51,191 nucleotides of DNA, from assembly GCA_011053095.1 (NCBI GenBank), contig DRHS01000257.1:1-51191 (forward strand). The letters are read 5' to 3'. The position numbers were made by a program, and so were the translations under genes. Source of the DNA: Bacteroides sp. (GTDB lineage: Bacteria; Bacteroidota; Bacteroidia; Bacteroidales; SM23-62). How positions within the stretch are numbered: position 1 is the stretch's first letter; every line of letters starts with the position of its first letter. The notes beneath the pieces were generated by a model. That model ran no database searches. It saw only the letters and a list, made by a program, of their open reading frames with translations, and was not told where the DNA came from. Positions 13,694-34,708 of the stretch are shown piece by piece.

Positions 13694-14428
13694 TCAGGGA
13701 TCTAAAGCTAAACTCATTTCTTTGATGATAGTTTCCTTTCCTGTATAGGTAAGTGTACCGGTGTAATTATCTTCAAACGAAAAGCCCTTAAACTGCCAGA
13801 CAGCATCATCAAATCCGCTGTTTGCAGATTGCAGCCTTATGGTTCCGTTGTCAATTGAAAAATCAAGATTTTCCTGCGTGAGGCGCAGTCCTTCTCCGAT
13901 GGCCTTTAGATAAGACTCCTTGAAGGTCCAGAACTGGAAAAATCTTTTGAGTTTACTATCCGGATCTTTCTGTAAATATTTTCTTTCCCTGGGAGTTAAA
14001 TTTTTCTCAATAAGCAGGTCGAGATCAGGGAGTTCCCGTATTCTTTCGATATCAATTCCCACTTCAGCATCTCTTGAAAAGGCATACGCACAGAGATTAT
14101 GCGAATTGGAAATATTAAAAAAAAGAGAGCCATCATTGAGCAGGTAGGGTTTGCCTTTTTTGTGGGCTCCCAATTTAATATCCGGGGGACTTATTTCCAG
14201 ATAATGCGATAACAGCATCTTTAGAACAGCCTGGGTAACAATATAATTATGCTGTAAGAGTTCAAATTTGTAATAAGATGCTTTCTCTATTTCCCCGGGT
14301 GATAAAACAGTCGTTATACGCTCAATCTGGTTTTTTGATGCATCAAGTGAGATTGTCCACAGATGGATTTCTCCCTTCACAAGACGAGGGAAAGGTTCTG
14401 TTTCAGCTTGATTCAGGATATAAAACAT
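13694..14428 (-). CDS. 4'-phosphopantetheinyl transferase, Sfp type
   Basis: Enzyme of 244 residues that transfers 4'-phosphopantetheine from CoA to a carrier-protein serine. Sfp-family motifs are present: KGKPYL (about 91-96), FFNISNSHN (103-111), VGIDIERI with Asp126/Glu128 for Mg, and FWTFKESYLKAIGEGL with Trp167, Lys170, Glu171 and Lys175. Its start overlaps the PKS stop codon (TGATG), so translation is coupled. The length matches Sfp rather than the ~120-residue AcpS. The natural target is very probably the ACP of the adjacent PKS (Ser2490). Confidence 0.95.
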   Translation of the reverse strand: MFYILNQAETEPFPRLVKGEIHLWTISLDASKNQIERITTVLSPGEIEKASYYKFELLQHNYIVTQAVLKMLLSHYLEISPPDIKLGAHKKGKPYLLNDGSLFFNISNSHNLCAYAFSRDAEVGIDIERIRELPDLDLLIEKNLTPRERKYLQKDPDSKLKRFFQFWTFKESYLKAIGEGLRLTQENLDFSIDNGTIRLQSANSGFDDAVWQFKGFSFEDNYTGTLTYTGKETIIKEMSLALDP

Positions 14429-17400
14429 CAGACAATAACAAACTCGCTTAATTCTTCAGTGAGTATTTCCAGCAGCTCTTCTTTGTTATCCCGGCAGAAA
14501 AGGTGACTTCCATTCACCATTCTAAAATTGAATTCGCCCGATGTGTGTTTCTTCCAGGCTTTGATCTGTCCCCCCTGGAAAACTGTATCATCTTTTCCCG
14601 CTAAGGCGGTAAGGGGACAACTCATGGGTTCATCTTCATAGTATTTGTATCGTTTGCCCAGAAGTATATCGGCACGAAGAGCAGGTAGCATCTCTTCAAT
14701 TAGTTCCTTATTCTGAAGTACCGACTCAGAAATTTCCAGCGATCTAAGGTGATTGACAATATTGGGAATATTTTTATCCATATAAACCTCATCATCCTGA
14801 ATGGCATCAAGGAATTTAAAAGGACTCACCATGTGGGGTGAGCGCCATCCGCCAACGATAAATTTAACAGGTTGAATGCCTTTTTCCCGTCTCAGATACC
14901 TTGTCAGTTCGAGTCCGATGCCCGCCCCTGCACTATGACAATAAAATGCTATGGGACAGTTTAGCAGTGGATCGATAACATCTGAGATTGCTTTAACAAG
15001 GTCGAGATAGTTGTCAATTGGATCTTCCCCCATACGCTCCTCACGTCCGGGATATTGAATGGCACAAACCTCAATTCCATCCTGCAGGGACTCCTGCCAG
15101 GAGCTGTACACAGAGGCACCACCGGCAAAATAGGGAAGACAGAAGAGTCGCATTCTCGGGTTATCAATCCTGTTGGTCCGAAGCACCCATTTATCCAATT
15201 CCGTTTTCTCCTCTCCATGGCCATCCCCTCCGCTCAACTGACCATTCAACTGGTCCAGGACCTGTTCAGCAAGTTCTTCAAGAGTCGGACCCTTCATGAT
15301 TTGCATCATGGAGTAATCAACAGATAAACTGCTCTGTATCCAATTCCTGATCTGGTTAGCCATAAGAGAATCCAGTCCATATTTGGTGACCGGTTCGTTA
15401 GTATCTATCTTATCTGCTGTAGACCCAAGCACCCTGGCAAATGTATCCAGCAGGTGGGTTAATAATACATCAAATTTTTCTTCTTTGTCTAATTCCTTAA
15501 GAGCGGTCTTCAATCCACCATCTCCTGCACCTGCAGCGGATCCTGCTGATAATTCCTTCTCTTTGATGAGATGGCCGAAACGGCTTGTTTCGCATGAGTG
15601 GGGATAAAAATTACCAACCATTTCCCAGTCAGAATCAGTAGCTACCCGCTGAACCGGGTTCGTCAACAGCATCTGTTCCAGGATATCGGTCGATTGTTTA
15701 AGGGTGAAGGTTTTCCAGCCCTGCTTGTACAGTAATCCACCTACATTCCCCTGTCTCGCCACAAATCCCACATCTCCAAGTACCCCCCAGTTGATTGTAC
15801 TGGCAGTCATGCCCTGTGATCTCCTGTACTGGGCGAAGTTTTCAAGGAAACTGTTTCCTGCAACATAACTTACCTGTCCAGGATTACCATATATTGATGA
15901 TATGGAAGAATACAATACAAAATGATCCATGTCCATATCCAGAGTAGCTTCATGCAGCAGCCAGCATCCAATACCCTTTGGTTTAAATACCTTAAGATAG
16001 CGTTCGTGATCAATCTCAGGGATGCCGCCATCATCAAGCACCATAGCCGCATGCTGGATTCCTTTAAGAGGAGGCATCTTTGACCTAACCTCCTGCATTA
16101 TCCGGTTAACATCTTCCCGTACCGAAACATCCCCTTTGGCGATCATCACATTTACGCCCCGTTCACGCATTTTGTCAACAAGCAATTTTTCATCATCTGT
16201 CTTGGGACCGGTTCTACTCATCAGGACAAGGTTTTTTGCCCCTTTTGTAGTCATCCAGTCGGCAACGTAGAGTCCAAATCCGGAACAACCCCCGGTTATT
16301 AGATAAGAAGCATTATCCACAAACTGAATTTCCTTTGGTGGAGCAACCTGGACTTCACCTTCCATGCTTATTATGATTTTACCAATATGCCTGGCAGCGG
16401 CCATAAACTGGAAAGCATCTTTGATTTCCGAGATTGGGAACATATGCGTAGGATGCGCCGGAAATTTATTCTCTACAAAGAAATCTATGGATTCCTGAAA
16501 CAATTCCCCGCTGAATTCTTCTTTTTGCTTGAAGAGCCTGTCTATATCAACTCCAAAATAGGAAAGGTTGTTACCAAAGGGTTGGAGTCCCAGCTTACTG
16601 TTGCGGTAAATATCCGTTTTGCCAATCTCGACAAACCGACCGTAAGGAGCTAAACACCTGATACTTTTAAAGATGGCTTCACCAGAGAGTGAATTAAGAA
16701 CAATATCCACACCCTCCCCATTGGTAAGTTCCATCAACTGGTCGGCAAATTCAAGCGTTCTTGAATTCATTATATTTTCAGGCCTGACACCAAGGCTTTC
16801 GATGTAGGCTTTCTTTTCATTGTTTCCGACCGTGGCATAGATCTTTGCACCTACAGCATTGGCAATATGTATGGCGGCAATACCTACGCCTCCTGCAGCT
16901 GCATGAATAAGAATCTTTTCCCCTTTGCGGATACGGCAAAGATGCACCAGGGAATAATATGCAGTTGTGTAAACAACTGGCAGTGTGGCCGCTTCATAAA
17001 AGCTGATGCCTGCCGGTTTCTGTACAACATGAAAGGCTTTTGGATAGGCATATCCGCTGATACAACGTGGTGCAGTAGCCATGACCTCATCGCCGACCTT
17101 AACATTCTTTACTTCCTCTCCGATCGCAGTTACGATACCGGCACATTCAAGTCCCATAGTCCTCCCGAACAATCCACCCATTATGGCATCATCGGTCAGG
17201 AGTCCCATAGAAAGCATGATATCACGGAAGTTCAGCGCTGATGTTTTGACCTGCACCTCAACTTCATCTTCGGCTGGTTCCTTGCGGGATGTTTCCCTTA
17301 TAACCAGGTTGTCAAGGACACCATACTCATCTATACTTAAGGTGTGGGCCGAGCCCTCTGCAGGGAATGTCCGCTCTGCAGAATGTGCAATACTATCAGT

Positions 17401-20400
17401 GGAAATCCTTTCCAGCCTGTTAATAAATCGTTTTCTTCCCCTGAAGGCGATCTCATCTTCCTTATCTCCTGCAAGTATTTCTTCGATGAATGCATCTATC
17501 TCTTCTGGGTGAACCGGATTGCTGAAATCAACCATGGTGGAATTGAAAATGGGAAATTCATTTACAATCACCCTGTTTACACCCCTTAGTCCTGCCTGGG
17601 AAAGCTCAACGGTTTCTGGATTTCCTCCAACGGATTGTGCACCGGAGGTAGCCATCCAGATTTCAGGTTTCTTCTCGTAGTTGGTGGAGTTCAGTTTTTT
17701 CATCACGTTCATCATGGTACGAGATGAATCGTCTTCTGCCTGAAGGATGGTCTCTGTTGTAAGTTGATCATTGGGAACAGAATCGAGTCCCCATAAATAA
17801 ATAATCCCCTCAAAACGACCCTTGCCGGCAAGCATGTCTATAAGTTTATCTGTGTCTTCCTGGTTTGCCGGATCGATTTCAAACTCCGTCTCACTGATCT
17901 GCTTGTATTTTTCAGCACGATTAATTTTGTAAGATTGCTTCTCGATGGCGGAAAGCCTTGAATCTATGAGATCTGCAACTCCCTTGCCATCAGCAAATAC
18001 GAGCCAGTCCCCTACACCAAGTTTCGCTGATTCCTCTATGGCCTTATTGGTCAGATCAAGCCTGGTATTTCGTGCAAGGATCACACTCTGGCAGGAAAAA
18101 TCATTTTTCTCAAAATCACTGTAAACCGCGATATCCGAAAATCCTTCTCTTTCCAGGACTTCTTTCCATTTCGATGGAGCCATGGTGGCATGCTCAGGGC
18201 GTATATCGGTATCCTCAAATAACCACCAGCCTTCGGTCATACCGAAGATAAAGTCCAGGTATACCGGTGAATTGGTCACTTCCAGCATGAGTAGTATTCC
18301 TTCCGAGGCAAGCAATTGCTTAATATTTCCGAAAGTAGTTTTCAGGTTCCGGGTAGCATGTATCACATCGGAGGCAATGACAAGGTCAAATGAATTTATA
18401 TCAAATCCCTGCTCTGCCGGTTCCTTCTCAATATCCAGTAATTTATACTGTACGAAGGGATACCTGGCGAATCGCTGCTGTGCCTTAAGCATAAACATAT
18501 GAGAGAGATCCGTGTAGTAGTATTCGGTCTTTCCGGCTGGCAGCAGGGGCAGGATTGCCTGGGTCATACCACCTGTTCCTGCACCGATTTCAAGGATTCT
18601 CAGGGTTTGATCATCAGGGATATTATTCAGTAATTCAGTTACCGCGGATCCGGCGAGATCGTTGTATTTCTTAAAGGCAAATCCTTCAACATAGTACTTT
18701 ACGATCAGATCCCACTGATCCTCAGGGAATATCAGTTGAATCGGATCAACCGTTCCTGTCAGAACACCGGCTATCTCCGGTCCACACCGGGCCAGGAGGG
18801 TTGTCTCATGTTGAAACTGGGGATATTCCGAATTGATTTCATGAAGCCATGCCGAGAGATCCCTGAAATCGGGTGTTTTGATAACCCTGAAATCATCCCC
18901 TTCACCCTCCACTATTCCTGCATTTCCAAGCAACTTGAAAATATGGTAAAACAGGCGGTGGTGATCGCTTATCACACTAAATTCTTTAATCAGTTGTGGA
19001 ACATTGATCTTTGTTCCCGTTTCGAATGACAATCCCAGCTCTTTCAGTGAGTTGCAGATGTATCCTATAGTCAGCAGGTACTGCCGTGGCTCATAATTCT
19101 TGTAGTAATCAGACTGTTCCGGCAGGGCATGTATCTGCTTGATGGTCTCATCAACCTTAGGCCTTATTGAGTTTGGAGAAGGAAGGTAATTTCCGGGATT
19201 TCGGACAAGTTCCTGGTCTGCCCTGGACTTCATATTCCAGTTATACTCATAAAACCATTTCTCCTGTTCAGCGGCGTTCTCGCCCCTGGAACCCTTCAGG
19301 TATTGGGAGCGAAAGCCCTGAAATTCGGCAAGGATTTCCCCTTCTTCATTGAAAATCCATAATTCTCCAAGTGCGTATTCATCCGTCCATTCTCTAAGAC
19401 TGCCATAAACAAAGAGTTTAAAGGAATTGGGCTTTTTGTGGAATTTAATCCGGTCAATGTGAACCGGGATGTAGACACCCATTTTTTTGCTCAGGTCCTC
19501 CCGGGTATTAAATATTCCAAAGACAGTCTGGAAACAGCTGTCCAGTACCCCGGGATGCAGATTAAAATGAAAGAACTCTGAGCGTATGCTTTCATGTACT
19601 TCGATCTCACTTAAGGATTCCCAGTTTGTTTCATGCCTCCATAAATTTTTAATCGCTCTGAATGTTGGTCCCAGGTACAGTTCGCTTTCAAGGAGTTCCT
19701 CGTGCATGGCCTTGACCGGAACAGGTATGGTGACCCGTTCGCGGATGGCTGGCAGATCTACTGGTATGGATTTAAATGAATCCCTGATATGGTTCATTTT
19801 ACCATTGGAACACATGGTCCAGGAAGCATTATCACCTCTGGGCCTGGAGTATATGAAATAATCTCCCCCATCATGGGAAATGTCCATTTGAATATGGATG
19901 GGTTCACCTGAATCGGGAAGGAAAAGTGCGGATTCAAAGTTCAGGTCCTCCAAAAATTCAAATTTCTCACCAAATGATGCCAGAGCAGCCGAGATGGACA
20001 GTTCTACGTGTCCGGCTCCGGGATAGACAATCGGTCCCTGTACTTTATGGTCATCAATATAGGGATAGGTTCTTTTATCCAGCTTGATGTCCCATATTAT
20101 ATTGTGACTTTCCCTGGCTGAAGTGGTTTTTCGTTCCAGATGAGGATGAATAAAGCTGCCAAGGCGTGTTTTTCTTCCTTCTTCAGTCTCCAGCCAGTGC
20201 CTTTCTTTTTGCCATGGGTAGGTAGGCAGGCGGACAAACTGGTTCTCTCCAAAATAGCCTTGCCAATGAACCTTGCATCCCCAGGTGTGAAGCGTCCCCA
20301 GAGAAGAAAGGAATGTGCGTTTTTCTTCATCCTGTCTTCGGATTGAGGGGACTACAACACCATTTTTCTGCCTGGCATCCAACAGGTCATTAATTCCCAT

Positions 20401-22836
20401 GGCATGAATGGGATGAGGGCCTAATTCAACAAATGTGTTGAAGCCGTCTTTAATTAACTCTTCAATGGCCGGGGCAAAACTAACCGTTTCCCTCACATTT
20501 CGGTACCAGTATTTGTTATCCAGTTTCCTGCCATCCATAACCATTCCTGTTACGGTGGAATAAAACGGGATTTTTGTAGGAGAAGGCTTCAGGGAGTCCA
20601 GGGCACCAAGCAACTCTTCCTTCAGGGGTTCCATGTGATGACAGTGGAAAGGTACGTTGATCTGAAGCAACCTGTTGAAAACATCCTGTTTTTCCAGCTC
20701 CTCTGAAATTTGCTCAATGACATCTGTATCTCCTGCCAGGGTTACCATTGCCGGCCCGTTAACAGCTGCCAGGGAAACCTTGTCCTCTCTTCCCTGAACC
20801 AGTCGGGTCGCTTCTTCTGTTGTCAATCCTGCGGCCAGCATTTTTCCTTTATCTGTGGCCTTAAACTGCACCCTGCTTCTGTGGAATATCAGCAAAACAG
20901 CCTGCTCTAAAGTCAGGGCACCTGAGGCATAGGCAGCAGGAACCTCCCCGATACTATGTCCGACGACAGCTGAGGGACTTATTCCCAATGCTTTCCACAT
21001 TTCAAAAAGAGCAATCTGAATGGCAAAAATGCATGGTTGAGCAATATTTGTCTCAGAGATCCTGGATGATTCCTCTTCTTTCAAAAGTTCTTCAAGTAGT
21101 GACCAGTCGGCGTGTTTGCTGAGAAGCTTATCCAGTGAATGGATGGTTTTCTTGAAGATCGGTTCGTTCTCCAATAACTGCCTTCCCATGGCCCACCATT
21201 GCGGTCCCTGCCCTGAGAAAACAAAAACGATCTTATCTCTTGTTTCATTAGCCCTTCCTTCAGAGATTTCACTTAAGTTTTCCCCATCCAGGTACTTTTG
21301 CAGATTATCTGCCATTTCCTGTTTTGATCCTGCTACTACGGACAGGCGAATATAGTGATGTGGTCTTCGTACGGCTGATGAATAACAGATAGCGTTTAAA
21401 TCAGCTTTGTTATTCTTATCCTTGAAAAAATCAATATAGGATTCCGTCAGATCTTTCAGAGCCTCAGAATCCCTTGCTGAAATCGTACAGATCTGAAGTT
21501 TTTCATTACCTGGTTTCAGGGTCTTCTTTTCCTCTGGCAATCCTTCAAGCACCACATGTACATTGGAGCCTCCAAAACCAAAATTATTGACTCCTCCATA
21601 GACACTGCCATTTTTCTCGTTTTTCCATTTCATTGGTTCAACCGGCACCTCAAGATTCAATTCATCAAAAGAAATATTTGGATTCGGTTTTTTGAAATGA
21701 ATATTCGGAGGAATTATCCTGTTATTCATAGAAAGTGCCAGCTTAATAATACCTGCAATGCCAGATGCAGGTTCCAGGTGACCAATGTTTGTTTTTACAG
21801 AACCTATATAAAATTTATCCTCACGGTTATTTCCTATTACTTTCCCTATAGAATTGGCCTCAATCGGGTCTCCCACAAAGGTTCCTGTTCCATGAGCCTC
21901 AATGTATTTGACCATTTGGGTTTCGACACCGGCATCTTTATAGGCCATCCTGATCATTTCCTGCTGGGCGATGGGGTTGGGAACTGATATTCCGTTGGTG
22001 GTTCCGTCCTGGTTAATCCCTGATCCCCTTATCACAGCATAGATAATGTCATTATCTTTTTGTGCACGGGAAAGTGGCTTGATGATTATCACACCGGCTC
22101 CCTCACTTCTTATATAACCGTTTGCACGGGAATCAAATGCATAACATTTACCGTCGGGTGACAGAAATCCTCCCTTGGAAAATCCCATCTGTGGTTCTGG
22201 CTTCAGAATGGCATTGACACCACCTGCAAATGAAAGATCAGCGTCCTTTTCCCAGATACTCCGGCATGCCATGTGAACTGCATTCAGGGAGGAGGAACAT
22301 GCCGTATCAAGGGCAAAACTTGGTCCCTTTAAATTATAGAAATAGGATATTCTGTTGGCTGTAATACAGAGAGCGGAGCCCAGGTTCGTATGTGCTCCGA
22401 TATTCACCTTCTCCACAGGGGTATTTTGAAGGTCGCCATAATCGTGAGATGATATACCAATAAATACAGATGTCCGGCTGCCATCCAGCTCATCGATGGT
22501 TAGTCCCCCATTCTCCACAGCCTCATATGAAAGTTCAAGAAGCATTCTCTGCTGAGGATCCATCCGTTGTGCTTCGAGAGGAGAAATTCCAAAGAAGGCT
22601 GCATCAAATTTATCGATGTCTTTTATGAATCCCCCCCTGTTGACACTAATTTTACCAGCTTGCTTAAAATCCGGAGCAAATAACGCATTTGAATCCCAGC
22701 GATCGACAGGTATGTCTGAAAGGGCATCGCTCTTTTCAACTATTAATTTCCAAAATTCTTCCGGATTGGTAACATCACCGGGAAATCTGCATCCAATGCC
22801 TACTATTGCTAAAGGCTCTCTCTTATTCCTATCCAT
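14428..22836 (-). CDS. Iterative highly reducing type I polyketide synthase, KS-AT-DH-MT-ER-KR-ACP-TE
   Basis: One reducing PKS module of 2802 residues. KS 1-430: Cys180 in DTACSSS, His315 in EAHGTGT, His353 in NIGHLEP. AT 535-840: Ser628 in GHSIGE and VPFH at 728-731, so Phe-His as in malonyl-specific ATs. DH 895-1180: His930 with Gly934/Pro939 (HxxxGxxxxP) and Asp1099 in HPGVLDS. C-methyltransferase 1240-1590: EIGAGTGG at 1416-1423. Structural KR-like region 1600-1810. ER 1835-2155: HAAAGGVG at 1978-1985. KR 2175-2400: GGCSGFG, Tyr2324, Asn2328 and an LDD motif at 2267-2269, which predicts a B-type hydroxyl. ACP: Ser2490 in GLDSL. TE 2560-2802, type II-like: Ser2635 in CHSAGA, acid near Asp2749, His2778. 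All active-site residues are present, so a fully reduced and possibly alpha-methylated chain released by hydrolysis is expected. The order resembles fungal HR-PKSs plus a TE. Confidence 0.95.
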   Translation of the reverse strand: MDRNKREPLAIVGIGCRFPGDVTNPEEFWKLIVEKSDALSDIPVDRWDSNALFAPDFKQAGKISVNRGGFIKDIDKFDAAFFGISPLEAQRMDPQQRMLLELSYEAVENGGLTIDELDGSRTSVFIGISSHDYGDLQNTPVEKVNIGAHTNLGSALCITANRISYFYNLKGPSFALDTACSSSLNAVHMACRSIWEKDADLSFAGGVNAILKPEPQMGFSKGGFLSPDGKCYAFDSRANGYIRSEGAGVIIIKPLSRAQKDNDIIYAVIRGSGINQDGTTNGISVPNPIAQQEMIRMAYKDAGVETQMVKYIEAHGTGTFVGDPIEANSIGKVIGNNREDKFYIGSVKTNIGHLEPASGIAGIIKLALSMNNRIIPPNIHFKKPNPNISFDELNLEVPVEPMKWKNEKNGSVYGGVNNFGFGGSNVHVVLEGLPEEKKTLKPGNEKLQICTISARDSEALKDLTESYIDFFKDKNNKADLNAICYSSAVRRPHHYIRLSVVAGSKQEMADNLQKYLDGENLSEISEGRANETRDKIVFVFSGQGPQWWAMGRQLLENEPIFKKTIHSLDKLLSKHADWSLLEELLKEEESSRISETNIAQPCIFAIQIALFEMWKALGISPSAVVGHSIGEVPAAYASGALTLEQAVLLIFHRSRVQFKATDKGKMLAAGLTTEEATRLVQGREDKVSLAAVNGPAMVTLAGDTDVIEQISEELEKQDVFNRLLQINVPFHCHHMEPLKEELLGALDSLKPSPTKIPFYSTVTGMVMDGRKLDNKYWYRNVRETVSFAPAIEELIKDGFNTFVELGPHPIHAMGINDLLDARQKNGVVVPSIRRQDEEKRTFLSSLGTLHTWGCKVHWQGYFGENQFVRLPTYPWQKERHWLETEEGRKTRLGSFIHPHLERKTTSARESHNIIWDIKLDKRTYPYIDDHKVQGPIVYPGAGHVELSISAALASFGEKFEFLEDLNFESALFLPDSGEPIHIQMDISHDGGDYFIYSRPRGDNASWTMCSNGKMNHIRDSFKSIPVDLPAIRERVTIPVPVKAMHEELLESELYLGPTFRAIKNLWRHETNWESLSEIEVHESIRSEFFHFNLHPGVLDSCFQTVFGIFNTREDLSKKMGVYIPVHIDRIKFHKKPNSFKLFVYGSLREWTDEYALGELWIFNEEGEILAEFQGFRSQYLKGSRGENAAEQEKWFYEYNWNMKSRADQELVRNPGNYLPSPNSIRPKVDETIKQIHALPEQSDYYKNYEPRQYLLTIGYICNSLKELGLSFETGTKINVPQLIKEFSVISDHHRLFYHIFKLLGNAGIVEGEGDDFRVIKTPDFRDLSAWLHEINSEYPQFQHETTLLARCGPEIAGVLTGTVDPIQLIFPEDQWDLIVKYYVEGFAFKKYNDLAGSAVTELLNNIPDDQTLRILEIGAGTGGMTQAILPLLPAGKTEYYYTDLSHMFMLKAQQRFARYPFVQYKLLDIEKEPAEQGFDINSFDLVIASDVIHATRNLKTTFGNIKQLLASEGILLMLEVTNSPVYLDFIFGMTEGWWLFEDTDIRPEHATMAPSKWKEVLEREGFSDIAVYSDFEKNDFSCQSVILARNTRLDLTNKAIEESAKLGVGDWLVFADGKGVADLIDSRLSAIEKQSYKINRAEKYKQISETEFEIDPANQEDTDKLIDMLAGKGRFEGIIYLWGLDSVPNDQLTTETILQAEDDSSRTMMNVMKKLNSTNYEKKPEIWMATSGAQSVGGNPETVELSQAGLRGVNRVIVNEFPIFNSTMVDFSNPVHPEEIDAFIEEILAGDKEDEIAFRGRKRFINRLERISTDSIAHSAERTFPAEGSAHTLSIDEYGVLDNLVIRETSRKEPAEDEVEVQVKTSALNFRDIMLSMGLLTDDAIMGGLFGRTMGLECAGIVTAIGEEVKNVKVGDEVMATAPRCISGYAYPKAFHVVQKPAGISFYEAATLPVVYTTAYYSLVHLCRIRKGEKILIHAAAGGVGIAAIHIANAVGAKIYATVGNNEKKAYIESLGVRPENIMNSRTLEFADQLMELTNGEGVDIVLNSLSGEAIFKSIRCLAPYGRFVEIGKTDIYRNSKLGLQPFGNNLSYFGVDIDRLFKQKEEFSGELFQESIDFFVENKFPAHPTHMFPISEIKDAFQFMAAARHIGKIIISMEGEVQVAPPKEIQFVDNASYLITGGCSGFGLYVADWMTTKGAKNLVLMSRTGPKTDDEKLLVDKMRERGVNVMIAKGDVSVREDVNRIMQEVRSKMPPLKGIQHAAMVLDDGGIPEIDHERYLKVFKPKGIGCWLLHEATLDMDMDHFVLYSSISSIYGNPGQVSYVAGNSFLENFAQYRRSQGMTASTINWGVLGDVGFVARQGNVGGLLYKQGWKTFTLKQSTDILEQMLLTNPVQRVATDSDWEMVGNFYPHSCETSRFGHLIKEKELSAGSAAGAGDGGLKTALKELDKEEKFDVLLTHLLDTFARVLGSTADKIDTNEPVTKYGLDSLMANQIRNWIQSSLSVDYSMMQIMKGPTLEELAEQVLDQLNGQLSGGDGHGEEKTELDKWVLRTNRIDNPRMRLFCLPYFAGGASVYSSWQESLQDGIEVCAIQYPGREERMGEDPIDNYLDLVKAISDVIDPLLNCPIAFYCHSAGAGIGLELTRYLRREKGIQPVKFIVGGWRSPHMVSPFKFLDAIQDDEVYMDKNIPNIVNHLRSLEISESVLQNKELIEEMLPALRADILLGKRYKYYEDEPMSCPLTALAGKDDTVFQGGQIKAWKKHTSGEFNFRMVNGSHLFCRDNKEELLEILTEELSEFVIV

Positions 22837-22950: not shown

Positions 22951-23766
22951 TCATTCCCGGGGGATAATCTCCCCAAGTTCTTTGCGAAACATATTCGCCA
23001 GTCGTCTCTCCCGGAATGCTGCAGGTAACAACCGGGTAATAATGATCAGCATCCGGTTGGCAACCCCCGGTACCACAATGGATTTGTGCTTCAGCATTCC
23101 ATTAACAGCTATCCTGGAAATTTCATCCAATTCAAGCACAAAAAGCTTTTTCGTAATTCCTGAATGAGAATCTATTCTTTTAAATGTTCCTTCATTTGTC
23201 CGTACACCATTAGGATGGATAACCGTTATGTTGATATTGCTTCCTTTTAATTCCTGACGGAGAGCCCGGCTAAAATAATGAACGAAAGCCTTCGATGCCG
23301 AGTAAACACTCTTATAGGCAATGGGGTAATAGGCTGAAAGACTTCCCATGTTCAGGATGTGGGATTGTGGATGTGTTTTGAGCTCAGTCAGGAAATACCG
23401 GGTCAGCAGGACCAGTGCCCTGATATTTACCAGGATCCTATCGTCACTGTATGCCGGATCAGAGCTCTCGAAGGGAGTAGATCCTGCCACTCCGGCATTA
23501 TTGATAAGAATATCTACTCTGTATGATTCCTTCCGGCACCATTCCCATACTCGAAGGGGTCCATCCGAATCCCTCAGGTCCACCGCCAGTCCATGCACTT
23601 TTACCGGGAACTCTTTACTTATTTCTGACACAACTTCCTCGAGGGTATCCTGCTGCCTTGCCACCAGCAGCAGGTTCATCCCACGTCCGGCACATTCCCT
23701 GGCCAGGCCATATCCTATTCCCCGGCTTCCACCAGTAATAAGAGTATATTTCATGTTGGTATTCAT
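22951..23766 (-). CDS. Short-chain dehydrogenase/reductase
   Basis: NAD(P)-dependent classical SDR of 271 residues. The cofactor loop is TGGSRGIG (11-18), NNAG is at 89-92, Asn114 is in place, and the catalytic set is Ser142 or Ser144 with Tyr155 and Lys159 (YSASK). The C-terminal third is hydrophobic and basic, suggesting membrane association, as in SDRs acting on lipids or steroids. The start lies 3 bp after the epimerase stop; MKYT at 23754 is an alternative start. The PKS begins 114 bp downstream in the same direction. A tailoring role on the polyketide chain, such as keto/hydroxy conversion, is inferred from context only. Confidence 0.9.
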   Translation of the reverse strand: MNTNMKYTLITGGSRGIGYGLARECAGRGMNLLLVARQQDTLEEVVSEISKEFPVKVHGLAVDLRDSDGPLRVWEWCRKESYRVDILINNAGVAGSTPFESSDPAYSDDRILVNIRALVLLTRYFLTELKTHPQSHILNMGSLSAYYPIAYKSVYSASKAFVHYFSRALRQELKGSNINITVIHPNGVRTNEGTFKRIDSHSGITKKLFVLELDEISRIAVNGMLKHKSIVVPGVANRMLIIITRLLPAAFRERRLANMFRKELGEIIPRE

Positions 23767-23769
23767 TTT

Positions 23770-24753
23770 TCAGGTATTTTCAAACCATTTTATCGTTCTG
23801 GCAAGTCCCTCTTCTATGCTTATGGGACTGTAACCCAATTCACTAATAGCCTTATTACTTGATGTTAACCAGTCGTGATTATATCTGCGTACAAAGTCGG
23901 GTACGATAGGGGGAGTCCTGCCGGTTATTCTTGCAGTGACCAGCATTCCTGCTGCTGCCAATGTCATCAGTCGCACAGGTATCCTGAAAAGCCGGTATTC
24001 TTTTCCGCTTACCATTGCCAGCCTGCTAAAAAACTCGCTAAAAGAAAGATTTTCTGACCCGGCCAGGTAGCGCTCTCCTGAGCGTCCTTTTTCCATGGCC
24101 AGCAAATGACAGTCCACAACATCCTCTACAAAAACAAAATTCCCAATACTGCTGCCGTCTCCCGGAATATACCTCCACTTCCCCTGCAGATATCGCACAA
24201 TCATCATGGTTACCGCATTGCTTTTACCTATATAGCCCGGTCCGTAGATACGTGTTGGATTCACAATTACAGCAGATCTGCCAGCATTTGCATATTCAAT
24301 AACCTTTTCCTCGGCCATAGCTTTTGACCTGTCATAATGGGTAAAGTGCCGGCCTTTAAAAATCGTTTCCTCAGTCTTTGGTTCTCCGGATGATGGACCC
24401 AGGACTCCGGCTGAGGATGTGAAGACAAGTTTTTCTACTCCCAATTTCTTTGCTGCAAGAAGTACATGCTCAGTTCCCCCGACATTTTCATCGTAGAATA
24501 ATTGGGAATTTTTTGCCCATGGCAATGCAAAAGCGGCCACATGATACACCTGATTGCATCCTTCCATGGCACGGACTATGCTATCTGAATCACCCAGGTT
24601 TCCCCCGAAAGGGTGTATATTCTCATGCTCCAGTCCTTTCAGCTTCGCCTCCGACCGGTACAGAATATGAACGCGATGACCATCCAGAGCCAGACGCAGA
24701 GCCAGCTGCCTTCCAAGAAAGCCGGTAGCACCGGTAACAAGGACAGTATTCAT
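23770..24753 (-). CDS. NAD-dependent epimerase/dehydratase (3-beta-HSD / dihydroflavonol-reductase-like)
   Basis: Extended SDR enzyme of 327 residues with the Rossmann motif TGATGFLGRQLA at the N-terminus, the active-site motif YDRSK, and a C-terminal substrate-binding lobe. The nearest recognisable groups are 3-beta-hydroxysteroid dehydrogenases and hopanoid-associated or dihydroflavonol-type reductases. The start at 24753 (MNTVLVTG) is chosen because its ATG overlaps the upstream stop codon (ATGA) and it sits right before the Rossmann strand; a longer frame exists to 24810 but adds a Lys-rich tail. It is the second gene of the PKS operon. The substrate is unknown. Confidence 0.9.
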   Translation of the reverse strand: MNTVLVTGATGFLGRQLALRLALDGHRVHILYRSEAKLKGLEHENIHPFGGNLGDSDSIVRAMEGCNQVYHVAAFALPWAKNSQLFYDENVGGTEHVLLAAKKLGVEKLVFTSSAGVLGPSSGEPKTEETIFKGRHFTHYDRSKAMAEEKVIEYANAGRSAVIVNPTRIYGPGYIGKSNAVTMMIVRYLQGKWRYIPGDGSSIGNFVFVEDVVDCHLLAMEKGRSGERYLAGSENLSFSEFFSRLAMVSGKEYRLFRIPVRLMTLAAAGMLVTARITGRTPPIVPDFVRRYNHDWLTSSNKAISELGYSPISIEEGLARTIKWFENT

Positions 24754-25487
24754 TTTTTTCTTGCGTTTTTTATGAGATTCATTTCCGGCTGGAAACCCAG
24801 TGAAAACCACTCGTTAGACAGGGCCATTGTCACATGGATAAAAATGGCAAACCAGAAGGACCCCAGATGAAGGGTAATGTAGCAAAGTAAAAATCCGAAG
24901 AAAATGGAGCCGATGGCTTCTCTGGACCCCTTGTGTATGTGGAAGAGCGAGTACAGGCTTATGTTAATTATAATGGCAGGCCAGTAGCCAAATGATTCAA
25001 GGCAGGAGAACAGCAGGTATCCGCGAAAAAGAAATTCGTACCCAATCAGGTAAGTAACCCAGCTCAGCGCAGAAACGACCAGGAGTCCCACATTCCAGTC
25101 ACTTACCCTGATCTGTGGATACATGGCAAGGTTTTTTTCGGAACGTGCTCCAATATAGCTGAGAATAATTACTACTCCAGCAATGGGCATCCACCAGAGA
25201 AAACTTTTCATCAGGTTATCGCCCGAGAACCCGTATTGTGCCATAGGTCTCCGGAACACAAAAATCATAATCAGAAATGGTATGAGTCCAAATACAACGG
25301 CCCCCAGGACCCGCTGGAAAAGAATCCTTCTTACAGCCGCAGCCCTGTCGGAGTACTTCCGCCTGATACCCCGGCCAAACCGCTCGGATCCGGTGGTGAA
25401 TAAATATACCAGGAAGGCAAGGGTGGCCGTTGCAATTGCAATGGTTCCGCTAAGAAGACTGGGGTCTGGCCCAGGATAGTCAATCAT
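24750..25487 (-). CDS. CPBP-family intramembrane protease-like membrane protein
   Basis: Membrane protein of 245 residues with about seven hydrophobic segments and the ABI/CPBP (Rce1-like) motifs. Motif 1 is reduced to YEFLFR where the family usually has EExxxR, so only one Glu is left. Motif 2 is YSLFHIHKG (FxxxH type). Motif 3 is FIHVTMA, with His but no following Asn. Whether it still cleaves peptides is therefore uncertain. Its stop overlaps the epimerase start (ATGA), placing it first in the PKS operon. CPBP proteins beside biosynthetic genes can act in processing, self-protection or transport, but none of these roles can be read from the sequence. Confidence 0.8.
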   Translation of the reverse strand: MIDYPGPDPSLLSGTIAIATATLAFLVYLFTTGSERFGRGIRRKYSDRAAAVRRILFQRVLGAVVFGLIPFLIMIFVFRRPMAQYGFSGDNLMKSFLWWMPIAGVVIILSYIGARSEKNLAMYPQIRVSDWNVGLLVVSALSWVTYLIGYEFLFRGYLLFSCLESFGYWPAIIINISLYSLFHIHKGSREAIGSIFFGFLLCYITLHLGSFWFAIFIHVTMALSNEWFSLGFQPEMNLIKNARKK

Positions 25488-28050: not shown

Positions 28051-28677
28051 ATGCAAAATGAATTTGACAAAATCCTCGAGAAGGTTTCGTCCCTGTATCG
28101 CAGGTACGGGATCAAGAGTGTAACGATGGACGATGTGGCCCACGAATTAGGCATGTCAAAAAAGACACTCTACCAGTATGTGAATGACAAGACGGAACTG
28201 GTAGAAAAAGTAGTTGAGCATACACGGCTGTGTAATTTTTCCTCGATGAATGAGATGAAAGATTTTTCCGGAAATGCTATCGAGATGCTTGTTGAAGTAA
28301 GCCAGCGAGTAAACGCCCTGCTGAAAGATCATAGTCCCGCGTACGAATACGATCTTAAAAAATATTATCCTGACATCTTCGAGGGTCTGAAGTCGGCGCA
28401 TAGAAAGATGATGTATGAATCCATGATTGCAAACATCAGGCAGGGTAAAAAAGAAGGTGTTTACAGAAAGGAACTTGATGAAGAGATTATTGCAAAGCTT
28501 CATCTTCTCCGAATTGAAGGTATACAGTCAGGTGATATTTTTAACGAAGATGAGATGCGTTCCTCAAAATTTTTTCTGGAGGTATTCATCTACCATATAC
28601 ATGGAATGGCAACGGCCAGGGGACTGGAAATACTTGAAAAAAATATGGAAAAACTCAAACAGCTTGAAGCGCATTAA
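28051..28677 (+). CDS. TetR-family transcriptional regulator
   Basis: Regulator of 208 residues with an N-terminal TetR helix-turn-helix (about 10-55: YGIKSVTMDDVAHELGMSKKTLYQYV) and an all-helical ligand-binding C-terminal part. It is the first gene of the operon with tolC, MFP and RND genes, 30 bp upstream of the next start, so it most likely represses its own efflux operon until an inducer binds. The promoter/operator at 27921-27975 is a candidate target. The inducer is unknown. Confidence 0.92.
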   Translation: MQNEFDKILEKVSSLYRRYGIKSVTMDDVAHELGMSKKTLYQYVNDKTELVEKVVEHTRLCNFSSMNEMKDFSGNAIEMLVEVSQRVNALLKDHSPAYEYDLKKYYPDIFEGLKSAHRKMMYESMIANIRQGKKEGVYRKELDEEIIAKLHLLRIEGIQSGDIFNEDEMRSSKFFLEVFIYHIHGMATARGLEILEKNMEKLKQLEAH

Positions 28678-28707
28678 TGGCTTGAAAATGAACAAACAGG
28701 AAAAAGA

Positions 28708-30087
28708 ATGGTTATGAAAAGTAATATGAGATCAAAAATTAGGAAATACACCCTGCTGGTATCTGCCGTATGGCTGCTATTGGCGGTTCAGGGCCAGGCC
28801 CAGTATAATGAGGAAAAGAAAAGAAACTTTACCCTTGCGGAGGCACAGGCCTTCGCCGTTAAAAACAACCTTAATGTTGCAAATGCCCGGCTTGATATAG
28901 AGTCGGCCCGTCAAAGGATATGGGAGAATACTGCAATGGGACTCCCCCAGATTTCAGCCGGTGCATCCTATACCAACAACCTTCAGTTGATGACCACACT
29001 GATACCCGGTGAATTTTTCGGGGGTGAGGCAGGTTCATACATACCGGTAAAATTTGGTACTCAGCATAATGCCTCCGCAAATATCATTGCCAACCAGTTG
29101 CTTTTCAGCGGACCCTTTATCGTGGGACTGCAGGCTGCTTCCACATATAAAGACCTGACTCAGAAAAACTTTGATAAGCAGGAAGCTGATATAAAAGAGG
29201 CCGTGGCACAGAGCTACTATTCAATTCTCCTTGCCGAAGCCGGAAGGGATGCTTTTGCCAAAAATCTTCAAACCATGGAAAAAAGGCTGGAAGAAACCAG
29301 GGCCATGTATGAAACAGGCTTTTTGGAGGAAACCGATGTTGACCAGATACAAATCGCTGTATCCACTCTTAAAAATGAGCACATATCCGCAAGCCAGCTT
29401 GTAGAGATGTCCTACCGCTTTCTAATCTACAGGATGGGCTACGGGATTGATTCAAATATTGTCATTACAGAGACACTTGAAGGCATAATTGCCGGATTAA
29501 CCGATGAGCTTCTTAGGCAGGAATTTAACGTTACTGAACATTATGATTACAGAATCGTTAATGAACAGGAAAAACTGGCGTACCTGCAGGTCAAGATGAA
29601 TAAGTATGAATACATGCCTACACTCTCGGCCTATCTTAACCATCAGCAGATGGCGATGCGAAACAGTTTTGATTTCGCCAGTACCGGTGGTGACTGGTTC
29701 CCGGCTACTATGCTGGGATTTAATCTCGAGGTACCCATATTTGCTTCAGGTATGCGCAAGGCCAAGATTGGTCAATCCAAGATCGAGCTTGAGAAAACAA
29801 AAAACATGAAACAGGACCTGTCCAACGCCCTGGAACTTCAGGTTCAGCAGGCAAGAATTGATTTCAGGACATCCTACCAGAGGTTTCTGAATGAGCGAAG
29901 CAACATGGACCTGGCACAGAAGATATTTGACCGGACATCCATTAAATACAAAAACGGAATGGTCAGCAGTCTTGAAATGACCATTGCAACCGAACAGCTT
30001 ACCGGTGCACAGACTGGCATAATATCAGCCATGGTTGAATTGTTGAATTCAAAACTGGCCCTTGATAAATCATTGGGAAACATTTAA
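28708..30087 (+). CDS. TolC-family outer-membrane efflux protein
   Basis: Outer-membrane channel of 459 residues for the tripartite efflux pump. The N-terminus is a signal peptide (KYTLLVSAVWLLLAVQGQAQ). Two repeated OEP halves follow, each with long coiled helices such as TLAEAQAFAVKNNLNVANARLD and YQRFLNERSNMDLAQKIFDR. The first codon at 28708 is chosen as the longest start; Met at 28726 (MRSKIRK) also fits the signal peptide. It lies 30 bp after tetR and 27 bp before the adaptor gene. Confidence 0.93.
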   Translation: MVMKSNMRSKIRKYTLLVSAVWLLLAVQGQAQYNEEKKRNFTLAEAQAFAVKNNLNVANARLDIESARQRIWENTAMGLPQISAGASYTNNLQLMTTLIPGEFFGGEAGSYIPVKFGTQHNASANIIANQLLFSGPFIVGLQAASTYKDLTQKNFDKQEADIKEAVAQSYYSILLAEAGRDAFAKNLQTMEKRLEETRAMYETGFLEETDVDQIQIAVSTLKNEHISASQLVEMSYRFLIYRMGYGIDSNIVITETLEGIIAGLTDELLRQEFNVTEHYDYRIVNEQEKLAYLQVKMNKYEYMPTLSAYLNHQQMAMRNSFDFASTGGDWFPATMLGFNLEVPIFASGMRKAKIGQSKIELEKTKNMKQDLSNALELQVQQARIDFRTSYQRFLNERSNMDLAQKIFDRTSIKYKNGMVSSLEMTIATEQLTGAQTGIISAMVELLNSKLALDKSLGNI

Positions 30088-30114
30088 GGAATAAATCTAT
30101 AACACCAGAATAAA

Positions 30115-31236
30115 ATGACAACAAAAGTAGTAACACTCTTAGGCCTGGTTCTTATTGCTGGGGCCTGTAATATGAGCAGTCCCGAGATGATCGAACAGCA
30201 GATCAAAAAGAAAAATGAGCAGGTTAAAAAAATTAATGATGAGATTGCCCAGCTCGAGTCAAGCCTTCAGCCGGATTCTACCTCTGACATGAAATACCGC
30301 GTGCCGGTTTCCACAAAGGAATTGCAAACTGAAGCCTTTAAGCATTTCATTGAAGTGACAGGTAAGCTTGAGGCTGAAGAGGATGCATATATTTCACCTG
30401 AAATGAATGGACAGATTGAGATCATCCATGTGAAAGAGGGACAGACAGTCAAAAAAGGTCATATAATGGTTTCTCTGAATACCAGCCTGATTGAAAGCAG
30501 TATCGGGGAGGTCAAAGCCGGCCTTGAACTTGCCAATAAATTCTATGACAAGCAGAAGGAGCTGTGGGACCAGAGTATAGGTTCTGAAATGCAGTACCTT
30601 GAAGCCAAGAATGCCAAGGAACAGGCTGAGGCCAGGCTGGCCACTCTGAATGTTCAGCTGGATATGGCAAATGTAAAAGCCCCTTTCAGCGGTATTGTTG
30701 AAACCATCCTCGTGAAAGAGGGAGAACTGGCGATGCCAGGCAGGCAACTCGTCCAGCTAATCAGCTTGGAAAAACTGAAATTATACGGCAATATCTCGGA
30801 GCGGTATATGACCAGTGTTTCCAAAGGTGATAATGTAATCATTAATTTTCCTGATGTTGGCGATATGTCTCTCGATGCACCCATTTTCAGGGTAGGTAAT
30901 GTTATCGACAATGCCTCACGTACCTTCCGCATTGAGGTTAAGATTGATAACAAAAATCAATCATTGAAGCCAAATATGTATTCTATCATCCGCATTAATG
31001 ATTTCAGTGCTTCCGCCGCTTTTGTTGTGCCCTCCTTTGTTATCAAGCAAGACATCAAGGGAAATTACATATACATAGCAGACACTGAAGAAAATAAAGC
31101 AAGGAAACGATATGTCAGCACGGGTCTTACCTATGAAGATCAAACCATGATACAGGAGGGTGTTGAAAAGGGAGAAAAAGTAATAATTCTGGGATTTTCG
31201 CAGGTTTCGGATGGGGTTGATATTGACTTAAGATAG
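30115..31236 (+). CDS. RND efflux periplasmic adaptor lipoprotein (MFP/HlyD type)
   Basis: Membrane-fusion protein of 373 residues linking the RND pump to the outer-membrane channel. The signal peptide ends in a lipobox (IAGAC), so it is anchored in the inner membrane. A short coiled coil (about 23-48: MIEQQIKKKNEQVKKINDEIAQLESS) precedes the biotinyl/lipoyl-like half-motifs (IEIIHVKEGQTVKKGHIM; VKAPFSGIVETILVKEGELA), an alpha-hairpin and the beta-barrel. It begins 27 bp after tolC and ends 7 bp before the pump gene. Confidence 0.93.
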   Translation: MTTKVVTLLGLVLIAGACNMSSPEMIEQQIKKKNEQVKKINDEIAQLESSLQPDSTSDMKYRVPVSTKELQTEAFKHFIEVTGKLEAEEDAYISPEMNGQIEIIHVKEGQTVKKGHIMVSLNTSLIESSIGEVKAGLELANKFYDKQKELWDQSIGSEMQYLEAKNAKEQAEARLATLNVQLDMANVKAPFSGIVETILVKEGELAMPGRQLVQLISLEKLKLYGNISERYMTSVSKGDNVIINFPDVGDMSLDAPIFRVGNVIDNASRTFRIEVKIDNKNQSLKPNMYSIIRINDFSASAAFVVPSFVIKQDIKGNYIYIADTEENKARKRYVSTGLTYEDQTMIQEGVEKGEKVIILGFSQVSDGVDIDLR

Positions 31237-31243
31237 TACTCAA

Positions 31244-34200
31244 ATGACAGCAAAAGAAATAAAAGACACCGTTATAAGGGAGTTTAAAATAACCACCCTT
31301 GCGCTGAAGAACAAGAATACTGTATTTCTGCTCGCTTTCGTCATATTACTTTTTGGCGGAATATCCTACAATAATCTTCCCAAGGAATTGTTCCCGGATA
31401 TTGTGATACCAACCATATTGGTCCAGACCACATACCCTGGAAATGCTCCCATTGATATTGAAAACCTGATCACCCGGCCGATTGAAAAAGAAATTGAAGG
31501 CATTAACGGGATCAAAACACTTTCTTCCACATCTGCCCAGGATGCATCAATGGTCTTTGTGGAATTCAACACTAACGTAAATATTGAAGATGCCCTTTCG
31601 GATGTTAAGGATGCGGTAGATAATGCCAAGAGAGAACTTCCCAATGACCTTATGTTCGATCCCCTGGTTATGGATATTGACCTTTCGGAATTCCCCATCC
31701 TCAATATAAACCTCTCAGGAGATTTCAGCCTGGAAGAATTGAGGGATTACGCCGAGTATCTTGAAGATGAAATTGAGAGCATCTCTGAAATTTCAAAAGT
31801 AGAACTACAGGGACTCAATGAAAAGGAAATCCGCATCGATGTAGACCTTCTTAAAATGGAGGCTCTTGAATTGACTTTCTTTGATATCGAGATGGCCGTT
31901 GCCGCTGAAAATATTTCAATCTCAGGAGGAGAGATAAAATTGGGTTCAGCAAGAAGATCTATCCGGACAATAGGTGAATTTCAATCTATTGAAGAAATTG
32001 GAGATATTATCATTAAAAGGGAGATGGGAAACACAGTTCAGCTTAAAGACATAGCTGATGTATTTGATGGGTATGCCGATCCGGAATCCTACGCACGCTT
32101 AAACAAGCAGCCGGTCGTTTCGGTTCAGGTAATTAAAAAAGGTGGAGAAAACCTACTTGCCGCTACCGATAAAATCTTTGAAACCCTTGACCAGGCTCGT
32201 CAATCCGGAAGAATTCCAGCGGATCTGAATATGACTCTTACCAACGATCAATCCGATATGGTTCGTCTCCAGATTAACAACCTGGAAAACAGTATGATAA
32301 TGGGTGTGATTTTTGTGGTGCTGGTCTTGTTCTATTTTCTCGGGACCAGAAATGCACTTTTCGTAGGGATTGCAATTCCGATGTCTATGTTCACTTCTTT
32401 CATTATCCTTAATATGATCGGGTACAAGCTGAACATGATCGTCCTGTTTTCGTTAATACTGGCATTGGGAATGCTGGTTGACAATGGAATCGTGGTCGTG
32501 GAAAATATATATCGTTTTGTATCAAAAGGGTATAAACCCTTCGAGGCAGCCAGGCAGGCTGTGGGTGAAATTGCCGTCCCGATTATCGCATCCACAGCAA
32601 CAACACTCGCTGCCTTTATACCCCTTGCATTCTGGGGTGGAATGACCGGTGAATTTATGAAGGCCTTGCCAATTACCCTGATGATAGTACTAAGCTCCTC
32701 CTTATTTGTAGCCCTGATCATCATACCCGTTATTTCAGCCACATTCATACGCGTTGGGGGAACGGAATTTGACAGCAAGCCGGACAAGAAAAAGGGATAC
32801 CGGACTATTCTTATACTGGCAGGAGCTGCCGTTTTGCTTCACATCATTAAATGGCCAATGCTGGCAAACCTGATGGTATTGTTTGCAATAATCGGTTTTC
32901 TGAACATCGTTTTCTTCCATAAGGCAGAGCTCTGGTTCCAGAATGTATTTCTTGTATGGCTTGAAAAGATTTACACGAAGTCACTTCAGTATGCACTTCG
33001 TGGCAGGAATCCGCTCTGGTTTTTCATTGGGACCATTGGATTGATGTTTTTTACAATGATTCTGTTTGGGATTCGCCAACCTCAGGTAACCTTTTTCCCG
33101 ATTAATTCTCCGAATTATATAAACGTAATCGCCGAATTTCCCATTGGGACTGACATTGAAGAAACAGACAGGTTCATGAAAGAAGAATTGGAAGAAGACG
33201 TATTCAGGCTCTTAGAACCTCACAGGGATATAGTAAAGTCAGTTCTGACAACAGTTGGAAAAGGAGGGGAAGAGGACCTCAGCAATATGAGTATTGGAGG
33301 CACACCTCATAAGGCCCTTACAACAGTAACTTTTGTAGATTATGAATTCCGGAAAGGTATTGATACCAGGGCTATAATGAGGGTGATTTCAGATGAACTG
33401 ATAGGAAAATATCCGGGAGTCCAGCTTTCCGTTGAAAAGGACAATATGGGTCCCCCGGCAGGAAAGGCCATTAACATAGAAATTAGCGGACAGGATTTCG
33501 AGGAACTGCTTTATCTGTCTGATTCAATGATGACTTTTATTGATATGGCGAATATCGAAGGGGTTGAGGGACTCAAAAGCAATCTTACCGTGGGAAAACC
33601 TGAGTTGCTTGTAACCATAGATCGTGAAAAAGCCCGCAGGTATGGACTATCAACCATGCAAATTGCGAGTACCATCCGGACTTCACTTTTCGGAAAGGAG
33701 ATATCTGACTTTAAAGTGGGTGAAGATGAATACCCCATACAGCTCAGACTTCAGGAAAAATACCGGTACAATGTCCCGGCACTTATGAACCAGAAGATAA
33801 TCTTCAATGAAGATGGCAAAAACATCGGTGTACCTATCTCTGCCGTCGCTGATTTTACCTACAGCAGTACTTATGGATCTGTTCGTCGAAAAAACATGGA
33901 CCGGGTAATCACTGTATTCTCAAATGTAATTGAGGGTTATAATTCAACGGAGATAAACAATCTGATAGCGGAAAGATTGAGTAATTTTGAACTTCCCGAG
34001 GGCTACACCTACTCATTCACCGGAGAGCAGCAGGAACAACAGGAATCAATGGCCTTCCTGGGCCGGGCAATGCTTATCGCTCTGGCTCTGATCCTCCTGA
34101 TCCTTGTAACCCAGTTTAATTCAGTAATACGGCCTGCAATTATCCTGGCGAGTATACTGTTCAGTACAATCGGGGTTTTCGGCGGAATTGCCACCTTTAA

Positions 34201-34708
34201 AATGGATTTTGTTGTAGTAATGACAGGAATAGGGATCATTTCCCTTGCCGGGATCGTTGTTAACAATGCTATTGTCCTTGTTGACTACATAGAATTGTTG
34301 AAGGCTCGAAAAAGGAAGGAACTGGGACTGGAGGAGGGATCTTTCCTTCCCCTTAAGTTAGCTACTGAATGTATTGTACAGGGGGGTAAAACCAGGCTTA
34401 GGCCGGTTCTTCTGACAGCCATTACAACAATCCTTGGATTGCTGCCACTTGCGGTTGGACTTAACATTGATTTCAGGGGACTATTCGCTGAACTTGCGCC
34501 AAATCTATATTTCGGCGGTCCACAGGCAATTTTCTGGGGGGCTATGGCATGGACGGTTATTTTCGGACTGACCTTTTCAACCTTCCTTACCCTTATAATT
34601 GTACCTGTCATGTACAGGCTGACAACCCTGATTCAAAAACGTATGATTAACCTGTTAGCCCTTAGAAAAAACAACAACGGCCAGAAAGCGGTGGCCCCTG
34701 TTGAATAG
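31244..34708 (+). CDS. RND-family efflux pump permease (AcrB/MexB superfamily)
   Basis: Inner-membrane proton-driven pump of 1154 residues. There is a first transmembrane helix (about 24-43), a large periplasmic loop starting with LPKELFPDIVIPTI and VQTTYPGNAP, a helix bundle with LALGMLVDNGIVVVEN in TM4, a second periplasmic loop, and a final bundle with GIVVNNAIVLVDY in TM10. The TM4 motif has Asp-Asn where AcrB has Asp407-Asp408, a variant common in Bacteroidota RND pumps. A hydrophobic insertion around residues 515-560 lengthens the middle. The substrate is unknown; TetR control suggests drugs, bile-like compounds or lipids rather than metals. Confidence 0.93.
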   Translation: MTAKEIKDTVIREFKITTLALKNKNTVFLLAFVILLFGGISYNNLPKELFPDIVIPTILVQTTYPGNAPIDIENLITRPIEKEIEGINGIKTLSSTSAQDASMVFVEFNTNVNIEDALSDVKDAVDNAKRELPNDLMFDPLVMDIDLSEFPILNINLSGDFSLEELRDYAEYLEDEIESISEISKVELQGLNEKEIRIDVDLLKMEALELTFFDIEMAVAAENISISGGEIKLGSARRSIRTIGEFQSIEEIGDIIIKREMGNTVQLKDIADVFDGYADPESYARLNKQPVVSVQVIKKGGENLLAATDKIFETLDQARQSGRIPADLNMTLTNDQSDMVRLQINNLENSMIMGVIFVVLVLFYFLGTRNALFVGIAIPMSMFTSFIILNMIGYKLNMIVLFSLILALGMLVDNGIVVVENIYRFVSKGYKPFEAARQAVGEIAVPIIASTATTLAAFIPLAFWGGMTGEFMKALPITLMIVLSSSLFVALIIIPVISATFIRVGGTEFDSKPDKKKGYRTILILAGAAVLLHIIKWPMLANLMVLFAIIGFLNIVFFHKAELWFQNVFLVWLEKIYTKSLQYALRGRNPLWFFIGTIGLMFFTMILFGIRQPQVTFFPINSPNYINVIAEFPIGTDIEETDRFMKEELEEDVFRLLEPHRDIVKSVLTTVGKGGEEDLSNMSIGGTPHKALTTVTFVDYEFRKGIDTRAIMRVISDELIGKYPGVQLSVEKDNMGPPAGKAINIEISGQDFEELLYLSDSMMTFIDMANIEGVEGLKSNLTVGKPELLVTIDREKARRYGLSTMQIASTIRTSLFGKEISDFKVGEDEYPIQLRLQEKYRYNVPALMNQKIIFNEDGKNIGVPISAVADFTYSSTYGSVRRKNMDRVITVFSNVIEGYNSTEINNLIAERLSNFELPEGYTYSFTGEQQEQQESMAFLGRAMLIALALILLILVTQFNSVIRPAIILASILFSTIGVFGGIATFKMDFVVVMTGIGIISLAGIVVNNAIVLVDYIELLKARKRKELGLEEGSFLPLKLATECIVQGGKTRLRPVLLTAITTILGLLPLAVGLNIDFRGLFAELAPNLYFGGPQAIFWGAMAWTVIFGLTFSTFLTLIIVPVMYRLTTLIQKRMINLLALRKNNNGQKAVAPVE

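Follow-up and report, generated by a model that had tools for sequence, protein, structure and literature searches.

The 51,191-nucleotide stretch of DNA that we analysed (the window; Bacteroides sp., contig DRHS01000257.1) encodes a large polyketide synthase (PKS) that is probably a malonyl- and SAM-fed iterative synthase, making a methyl-branched, largely reduced fatty acid that would be hydrolysed free and then activated with CoA for use in lipids. Judged from its sequence, this PKS is fungal-like in layout only and its lineage is bacterial. It is a member of an uncharacterised bacterial family with a scattered occurrence among uncultured Bacteroidota, on which our literature searches found no paper.

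The PKS open reading frame runs without an internal stop along the minus strand. Pfam finds eight domains in sequence, in the order KS-AT-DH-MT-ER-KR-ACP-TE announced by the original prediction, and all the residues and motifs named there lie at the numbers given for them (C180, S628, H930, D1099, EIGAGTGG, HAAAGGVG, Y2324, S2490 and S2635). The gene, its domains and the gene that follows it are:

14428-22836, minus strand: highly reducing (HR) PKS gene, 2802 aa, KS-AT-DH-MT-psiKR-ER-KR-ACP-TE (ORF, Pfam, residues)
21544-22818, minus strand: KS domain, aa 7-431, with C180 in DTACSSS, HGTGT and NIGHLE (Pfam, residues)
20272-21234, minus strand: AT domain, aa 535-855, with GHSIGE and VPFH, malonyl type (Pfam, residues; specificity from established AT motifs)
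19294-20148, minus strand: DH domain, aa 897-1181, with H930 and D1099 (Pfam, residues)
18013-19143, minus strand: C-MT domain, aa 1232-1608, with the SAM motif EIGAGTGG, H1493 in DVIHAT and E1519 in LMLEVT (phmmer, AlphaFold model, conservation across 15 loci)
17347-18024, minus strand: psiKR or linker, roughly aa 1605-1830, one of the regions that evolve fastest (weak Pfam PF21394)
16363-17319, minus strand: ER domain, aa 1840-2158, with HAAAGGVG (Pfam, residues, sequence affinity)
15757-16323, minus strand: KR domain, aa 2172-2360, with the LDD motif, Ser and Y2324 (Pfam, residues)
15247-15468, minus strand: ACP, aa 2457-2530, with S2490 in GLDSL (Pfam, residues)
14437-15168, minus strand: TE domain, aa 2557-2800, type II TE-like, with S2635, D2750 and H2778 (Pfam, residues, homology)
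13694-14428, minus strand: Sfp-type 4'-phosphopantetheinyl transferase (PPTase), whose start codon shares letters with the stop codon of the PKS (..TGATG..) (Pfam)

The Pfam matches themselves, all highly significant, extend over aa 7-381 (KS), 537-855 (AT), 897-1181 (DH), 1238-1315 (helical part of the CMT), 1415-1515 (MT), 1856-2156 (ER), 2176-2353 (KR), 2462-2525 (ACP) and 2563-2793 (TE). VPFH occupies positions 728-731, EIGAGTGG lies at 1416 and HAAAGGVG at 1978, and further catalytic residues are H315 and H353 in the KS, H1493 and E1519 in the MT, and D2750 and H2778 in the TE. Between MT and ER lies the usual pseudo-KR, a region of low conservation; the original prediction was silent on it (about 1605-1830), on the strand and on the PPTase gene overlapping the stop codon. 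In AT domains, GHSIGE combined with a non-YASH motif corresponds to malonyl selection, and the presence of both GHSIGE and VPFH bears out the malonyl-type AT that had been claimed from VPFH. LDD-type KRs are B-type, PF00975 thioesterases with Ser-Asp-His hydrolyse or transfer acyl chains, and Sfp-type PPTases arm ACPs. With KS, AT, DH, ER, KR and ACP all intact by Pfam and residues within a single module, the protein fits the broad class of iterative highly reducing type I PKSs. No second type I KS was found in its genome (4.99 Mb, 83% complete), so that use of the PKS must be iterative or single-step, in line with the iterative use that had been predicted.

These features are consistent with the following route. 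The adjoining PPTase would arm S2490 of the ACP, as suggested by its family and adjacency, and the AT would load malonyl units. The KS, KR, DH and ER would then extend and reduce the chain in repeated rounds of the one module, while the C-MT would, in every round or only in some, transfer methyl groups from SAM to alpha carbons. Once finished, the chain would be hydrolysed by the fused type II-like TE and leave as a free fatty acid, methyl-branched and mostly saturated, which a separate acyl-CoA synthetase, adjoining in a related subclade and encoded elsewhere in the window's genome, may re-activate for incorporation into a lipid. What we observed directly is that the gene and its domains are intact and the catalytic residues conserved, together with the lineage, the affinities of the domains and the neighbouring genes; the activity, and with it the starter, the number of rounds, the pattern of methylation and reduction and the destination lipid, is inferred.

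In each of the 17 catalytically intact copies whose sequence continues beyond the PKS (the window and 16 orthologue loci), the Sfp-type PPTase is the adjacent gene, and its GxDxE and WxxKE(xxxK) motifs do not vary among eight homologues. In at least seven loci of the sister subclade (L008, L010, L012, L013, L015, L017 and L018), a FadD-type AMP-forming acyl-CoA synthetase (identified by Pfam for L010) lies downstream; it is not adjacent to the PKS in the window's own subclade, and two homologues (58% and 53%) are encoded elsewhere in the window's genome. A GNAT-like protein is found among the following genes in L012 and L015. The L012 PPTase (18385-19154) is split into two ORFs and the matching PKS stretch of that genome contains one TGA, which is decay or assembly error. 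Just upstream of the window PKS, on the same strand (22951-25487), are genes for an SDR (mycolate-reductase-like, below cut-off), an HpnA/3beta-HSD-like reductase and a CPBP protease; as they are not conserved beside intact orthologues, we rejected them as pathway members. When we scanned for promoters and terminators, promoter matches did not exceed the number expected by chance.

A scan of GTDB genomes yielded 19 orthologue loci besides that of the window, 57-84% identical, all in MAGs labelled Bacteroidales, Flavobacteriales, Chitinophaga, Cyclobacteriaceae, Salinivirgaceae and Sphingobacteriaceae. The distribution of the family across Bacteroidota is patchy: within the order, the PKS occurs in 3 genomes out of 295 (the window's own, one of the same genus and one from another family) and in 1 of 395 genomes sampled across the phylum (again the window's own), where the other long matches are different PKSs with at most 39% identity. 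Wherever the region is present, the catalytically intact orthologues, whose identity goes down to 63%, all retain the catalytic residues; one TE serine, in L008, is an unread base. Mean pairwise identity reaches 76% in the KS, 74% in the AT, 74% in the MT core and 76% in the ER, and 55% in the psiKR. Against the two nearest usable copies, dN/dS is 0.04-0.15 depending on the domain, values of which only the order of magnitude counts because synonymous sites are near saturation. One orthologue, in a Flavobacteriales MAG (L019:1371-8789; 2472 aa, 57% identity, the sole copy in its genome), has an intact ORF in which the KS Cys is replaced by Gly (DTAGSSAL), HGTGT by HGAGN, the DH His by Tyr and the KR Tyr by Asn. 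It also lacks the ACP serine, the TE and an adjoining PPTase, and is a dead or repurposed pseudo-PKS, open over 7.4 kb; a CPBP homologue precedes it too.

The main rival reading, possible though rather unlikely, is a programmed synthase of a specialised metabolite whose MT, DH and ER act only in certain rounds, as in fungal HR-PKSs, and whose product would be a functionalised polyketide acid or lactone, reduced in part, for signalling or defence. Fungal synthases composed of these same domains employ their MT, ER and KR selectively and yield structured polyketides, not plain branched fatty acids, so that the window PKS, too, may have a programmed product. The patchy spread would suit an accessory function, and 5 kb from the PKS lies a TetR-controlled RND efflux operon (28051-34708: TetR regulator, then outer-membrane efflux protein, membrane-fusion protein and AcrB-type RND pump). 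By contrast, no tailoring genes are conserved beside the orthologues, where we saw no further conserved gene apart from the PPTase and, in one subclade, the acyl-CoA synthetase; moreover, the TE is of a hydrolase family and not a macrocyclase. Its phmmer matches and best Foldseek matches are type II thioesterases, RifR being nearest, followed by BorB and RedJ, whereas TesA and human OLAH rank lower, and its PDB sequence matches include no FAS TE-I chain: it is a fused type II thioesterase. The hydrolytic release predicted originally agrees with this family, on which the preference for hydrolysis over transfer rests, since the TE model has a mean pLDDT of 73 and a poor lid.

It is unlikely that the PKS is instead a multimethyl lipid synthase of the MAS/Pks2 kind, adding a methyl in every round and passing the chain on to an acyltransferase dedicated to making a cell-envelope lipid. 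MAS is indeed iterative and fully reducing, is the best full-length match to the window PKS in the PDB and, among solved structures, is the nearest to its ER-KR part (334 bits), animal FAS being near as well. However, MAS introduces branches via methylmalonyl-CoA and has neither MT nor TE, unlike the window PKS with its MT, TE and VPFH-bearing AT, and an acyltransferase of the PapA kind was not found beside the orthologues. The KS phylogeny points in the same direction. We built KS trees from the loci of this analysis and KS sequences read from PDB alignments; for LovB and FASN, too, the letters in the tree are those of PDB chains. An earlier tree of 53 rows, the product of a short, unfinished search, could not reject grouping with LovB/PsoA (p-AU 0.74) and was therefore rebuilt more carefully with 33 rows. 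In the careful tree, the family (100/100) is joined by the MT-less synthases of Persicobacter and Aureibacter (96/92) and then by a Deinococcus homologue (96/93), and fungal LovB/PsoA, MAS, CurL, Pks13 and animal FAS all fall outside this grouping. AU tests strongly rejected sisterhood with MAS (p 0.0002), on which, together with the domain content, we reject membership of the MAS group. They also rejected sisterhood with fungal HR-PKSs (LovB/PsoA; p 0.029) and did not reject sisterhood with animal FAS (p 0.09), the KS branch of which is long (1.4-1.7 changes per site). In view of the value of 0.74 from the earlier tree, the rejection of LovB/PsoA is only moderate, and it would concern these as sisters, not a deeper fungal position relative to the bacterial clade. 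A KS phylogeny placing the PKS firmly in a characterised bacterial family with a known product would have refuted the original prediction; the family proved bacterial and without a characterised product.

Very unlikely too is the idea of an MT that survives only as a structural remnant, like that of animal FAS, in a synthase of ordinary straight fatty acids. Near relatives do lack the MT (Persicobacter and Aureibacter) or carry a degenerate one without the SAM motif, as in the Deinococcus homologue (EVGALAGG) and in synthases of Paraburkholderia (L048:3010-10668; ELDSPSSD) and Pseudomonas (L051:2989-10482; ELGFSASP), whose MT-sized remnants parallel the pseudo-MT of animal FAS. Yet no catalytically intact orthologue of the window PKS has lost the SAM motif or the His/Glu pair, and the slow evolution of the MT core matches that of the KS and ER. 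The MT is closest to CurJ both by sequence (243 bits with phmmer, versus 110 for LovB) and by its AlphaFold model (TM 0.81; mean pLDDT 78), which also matches the solved C-methyltransferases DszA, PksCT and AprA; the His/Glu pair is aligned in CurJ and PksCT. It is a bacterial cis-AT-type MT, and its intact SAM motif with H1493 and E1519 supports the SAM methylation that had been predicted. Recent transfer of the gene from a fungal HR-PKS, favoured by the domain order up to the ACP and by the unrejected LovB/PsoA grouping of the unfinished tree, is very unlikely, the careful KS tree and an MT and TE of bacterial affinity speaking against a fungal origin.

As far as the ACP, the window PKS has the same domains in the same order as fungal HR-PKSs (LovB, PsoA and strobilurin PKS1), and for this layout the original description as fungal-like stands; it fails for the lineage, as the KS groups within a bacterial clade and the MT, TE and ER-KR are nearer to bacterial or MAS/FAS proteins. 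The strobilurin PKS has a partial hydrolase after its ACP (PMC6158276).

Animal type I FAS shares the layout (KS-MAT-DH-(MT)-(psiKR)-ER-KR-ACP-TE) and likewise releases a free acid by hydrolysis. It differs in that its MT is inactive (PMC10764717), a pseudo-MT without the SAM motif where the window MT has EIGAGTGG, H1493 and E1519, and in that its C-terminal TE is of the TE-I type, the window TE being of type II. The original prediction overlooked that the layout matches an animal type I FAS whose MT is live, and also that bacterial mono-modular type I synthases were already known. We tentatively suggest, as a speculative extension, that the window PKS is a dedicated branched-fatty-acid synthase of animal-FAS layout with a live C-MT, that its products form a methyl-branched lipid class unrecognised in Bacteroidota, and that it preserves to this day an active-MT condition in which the dead MT of FAS-like enzymes could have originated. 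If the proposed function is correct, uncultured Bacteroidota of several orders hold a route to methyl-branched fatty acids of one gene plus a PPTase, running via SAM and not methylmalonyl-CoA, which could explain unassigned branched lipids of environmental samples. The hard problem of how fungal HR-PKSs are programmed could then be approached in a bacterial model that is easy to express, and animal FAS and the RkpA-type enzymes of bacteria, where the MT is a remnant, could be compared with an active-MT counterpart.

Among bacterial synthases, SupA, a mono-modular type I PKS of a sponge symbiont, is the proposed maker of mid-chain methyl-branched fatty acids, its product being unproven (PMC4245539), and SwfA, also mono-modular and type I, is proposed to make an acyl chain (PMC3908369). 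Like the window PKS, both consist of one bacterial module thought to be iterative (PMC4245539, PMC3908369), SupA being likened by description. SwfA differs in its KS-AT-DH-ER-KR-ACP organisation, which lacks MT and TE and is followed by a separate reductase/sulphotransferase protein (PMC3908369); the hosts differ as well, being sponge symbionts for SupA and SwfA and Bacteroidota MAGs for the window family. PfSgaA, which delivers its acyl chain to an alpha-oxoamine synthase for sphingolipids (PMC12134224), and the RkpA/WcbR group are similarly iterative, highly reducing single modules providing an acyl chain for a lipid (PMC12134224). L051 and L048, putative members of the SgaA and RkpA/WcbR groups as read from their gene context, are homologous to the window PKS from KS to ACP (31-32% identity). 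They differ from it by an adjoining alpha-oxoamine-synthase-type aminotransferase, the lack of a TE and an MT region without the SAM motif. Neither an alpha-oxoamine synthase nor capsule genes adjoin the window PKS or its orthologues, on which, together with the live MT, we reject membership of the RkpA/WcbR/SgaA groups. A live MT together with a fused TE is not shown for any of the relatives compared (Persicobacter/Aureibacter, RkpA/WcbR- and SgaA-like, Deinococcus, SupA and SwfA). Among the 40 plasmid records listed, the matches reaching the TE came only from Persicobacter, Aureibacter and Burkholderia glumae, all without an MT. The plasmid-borne synthases of the cultured Persicobacter psychrovividus (L044:7989-15215) and Aureibacter tunicatorum (L045:7968-15233) have the arrangement KS-AT-DH-ER-KR-ACP-TE, which is the animal FAS layout in a bacterium, and that of Aureibacter is adjoined by an annotated PPTase.
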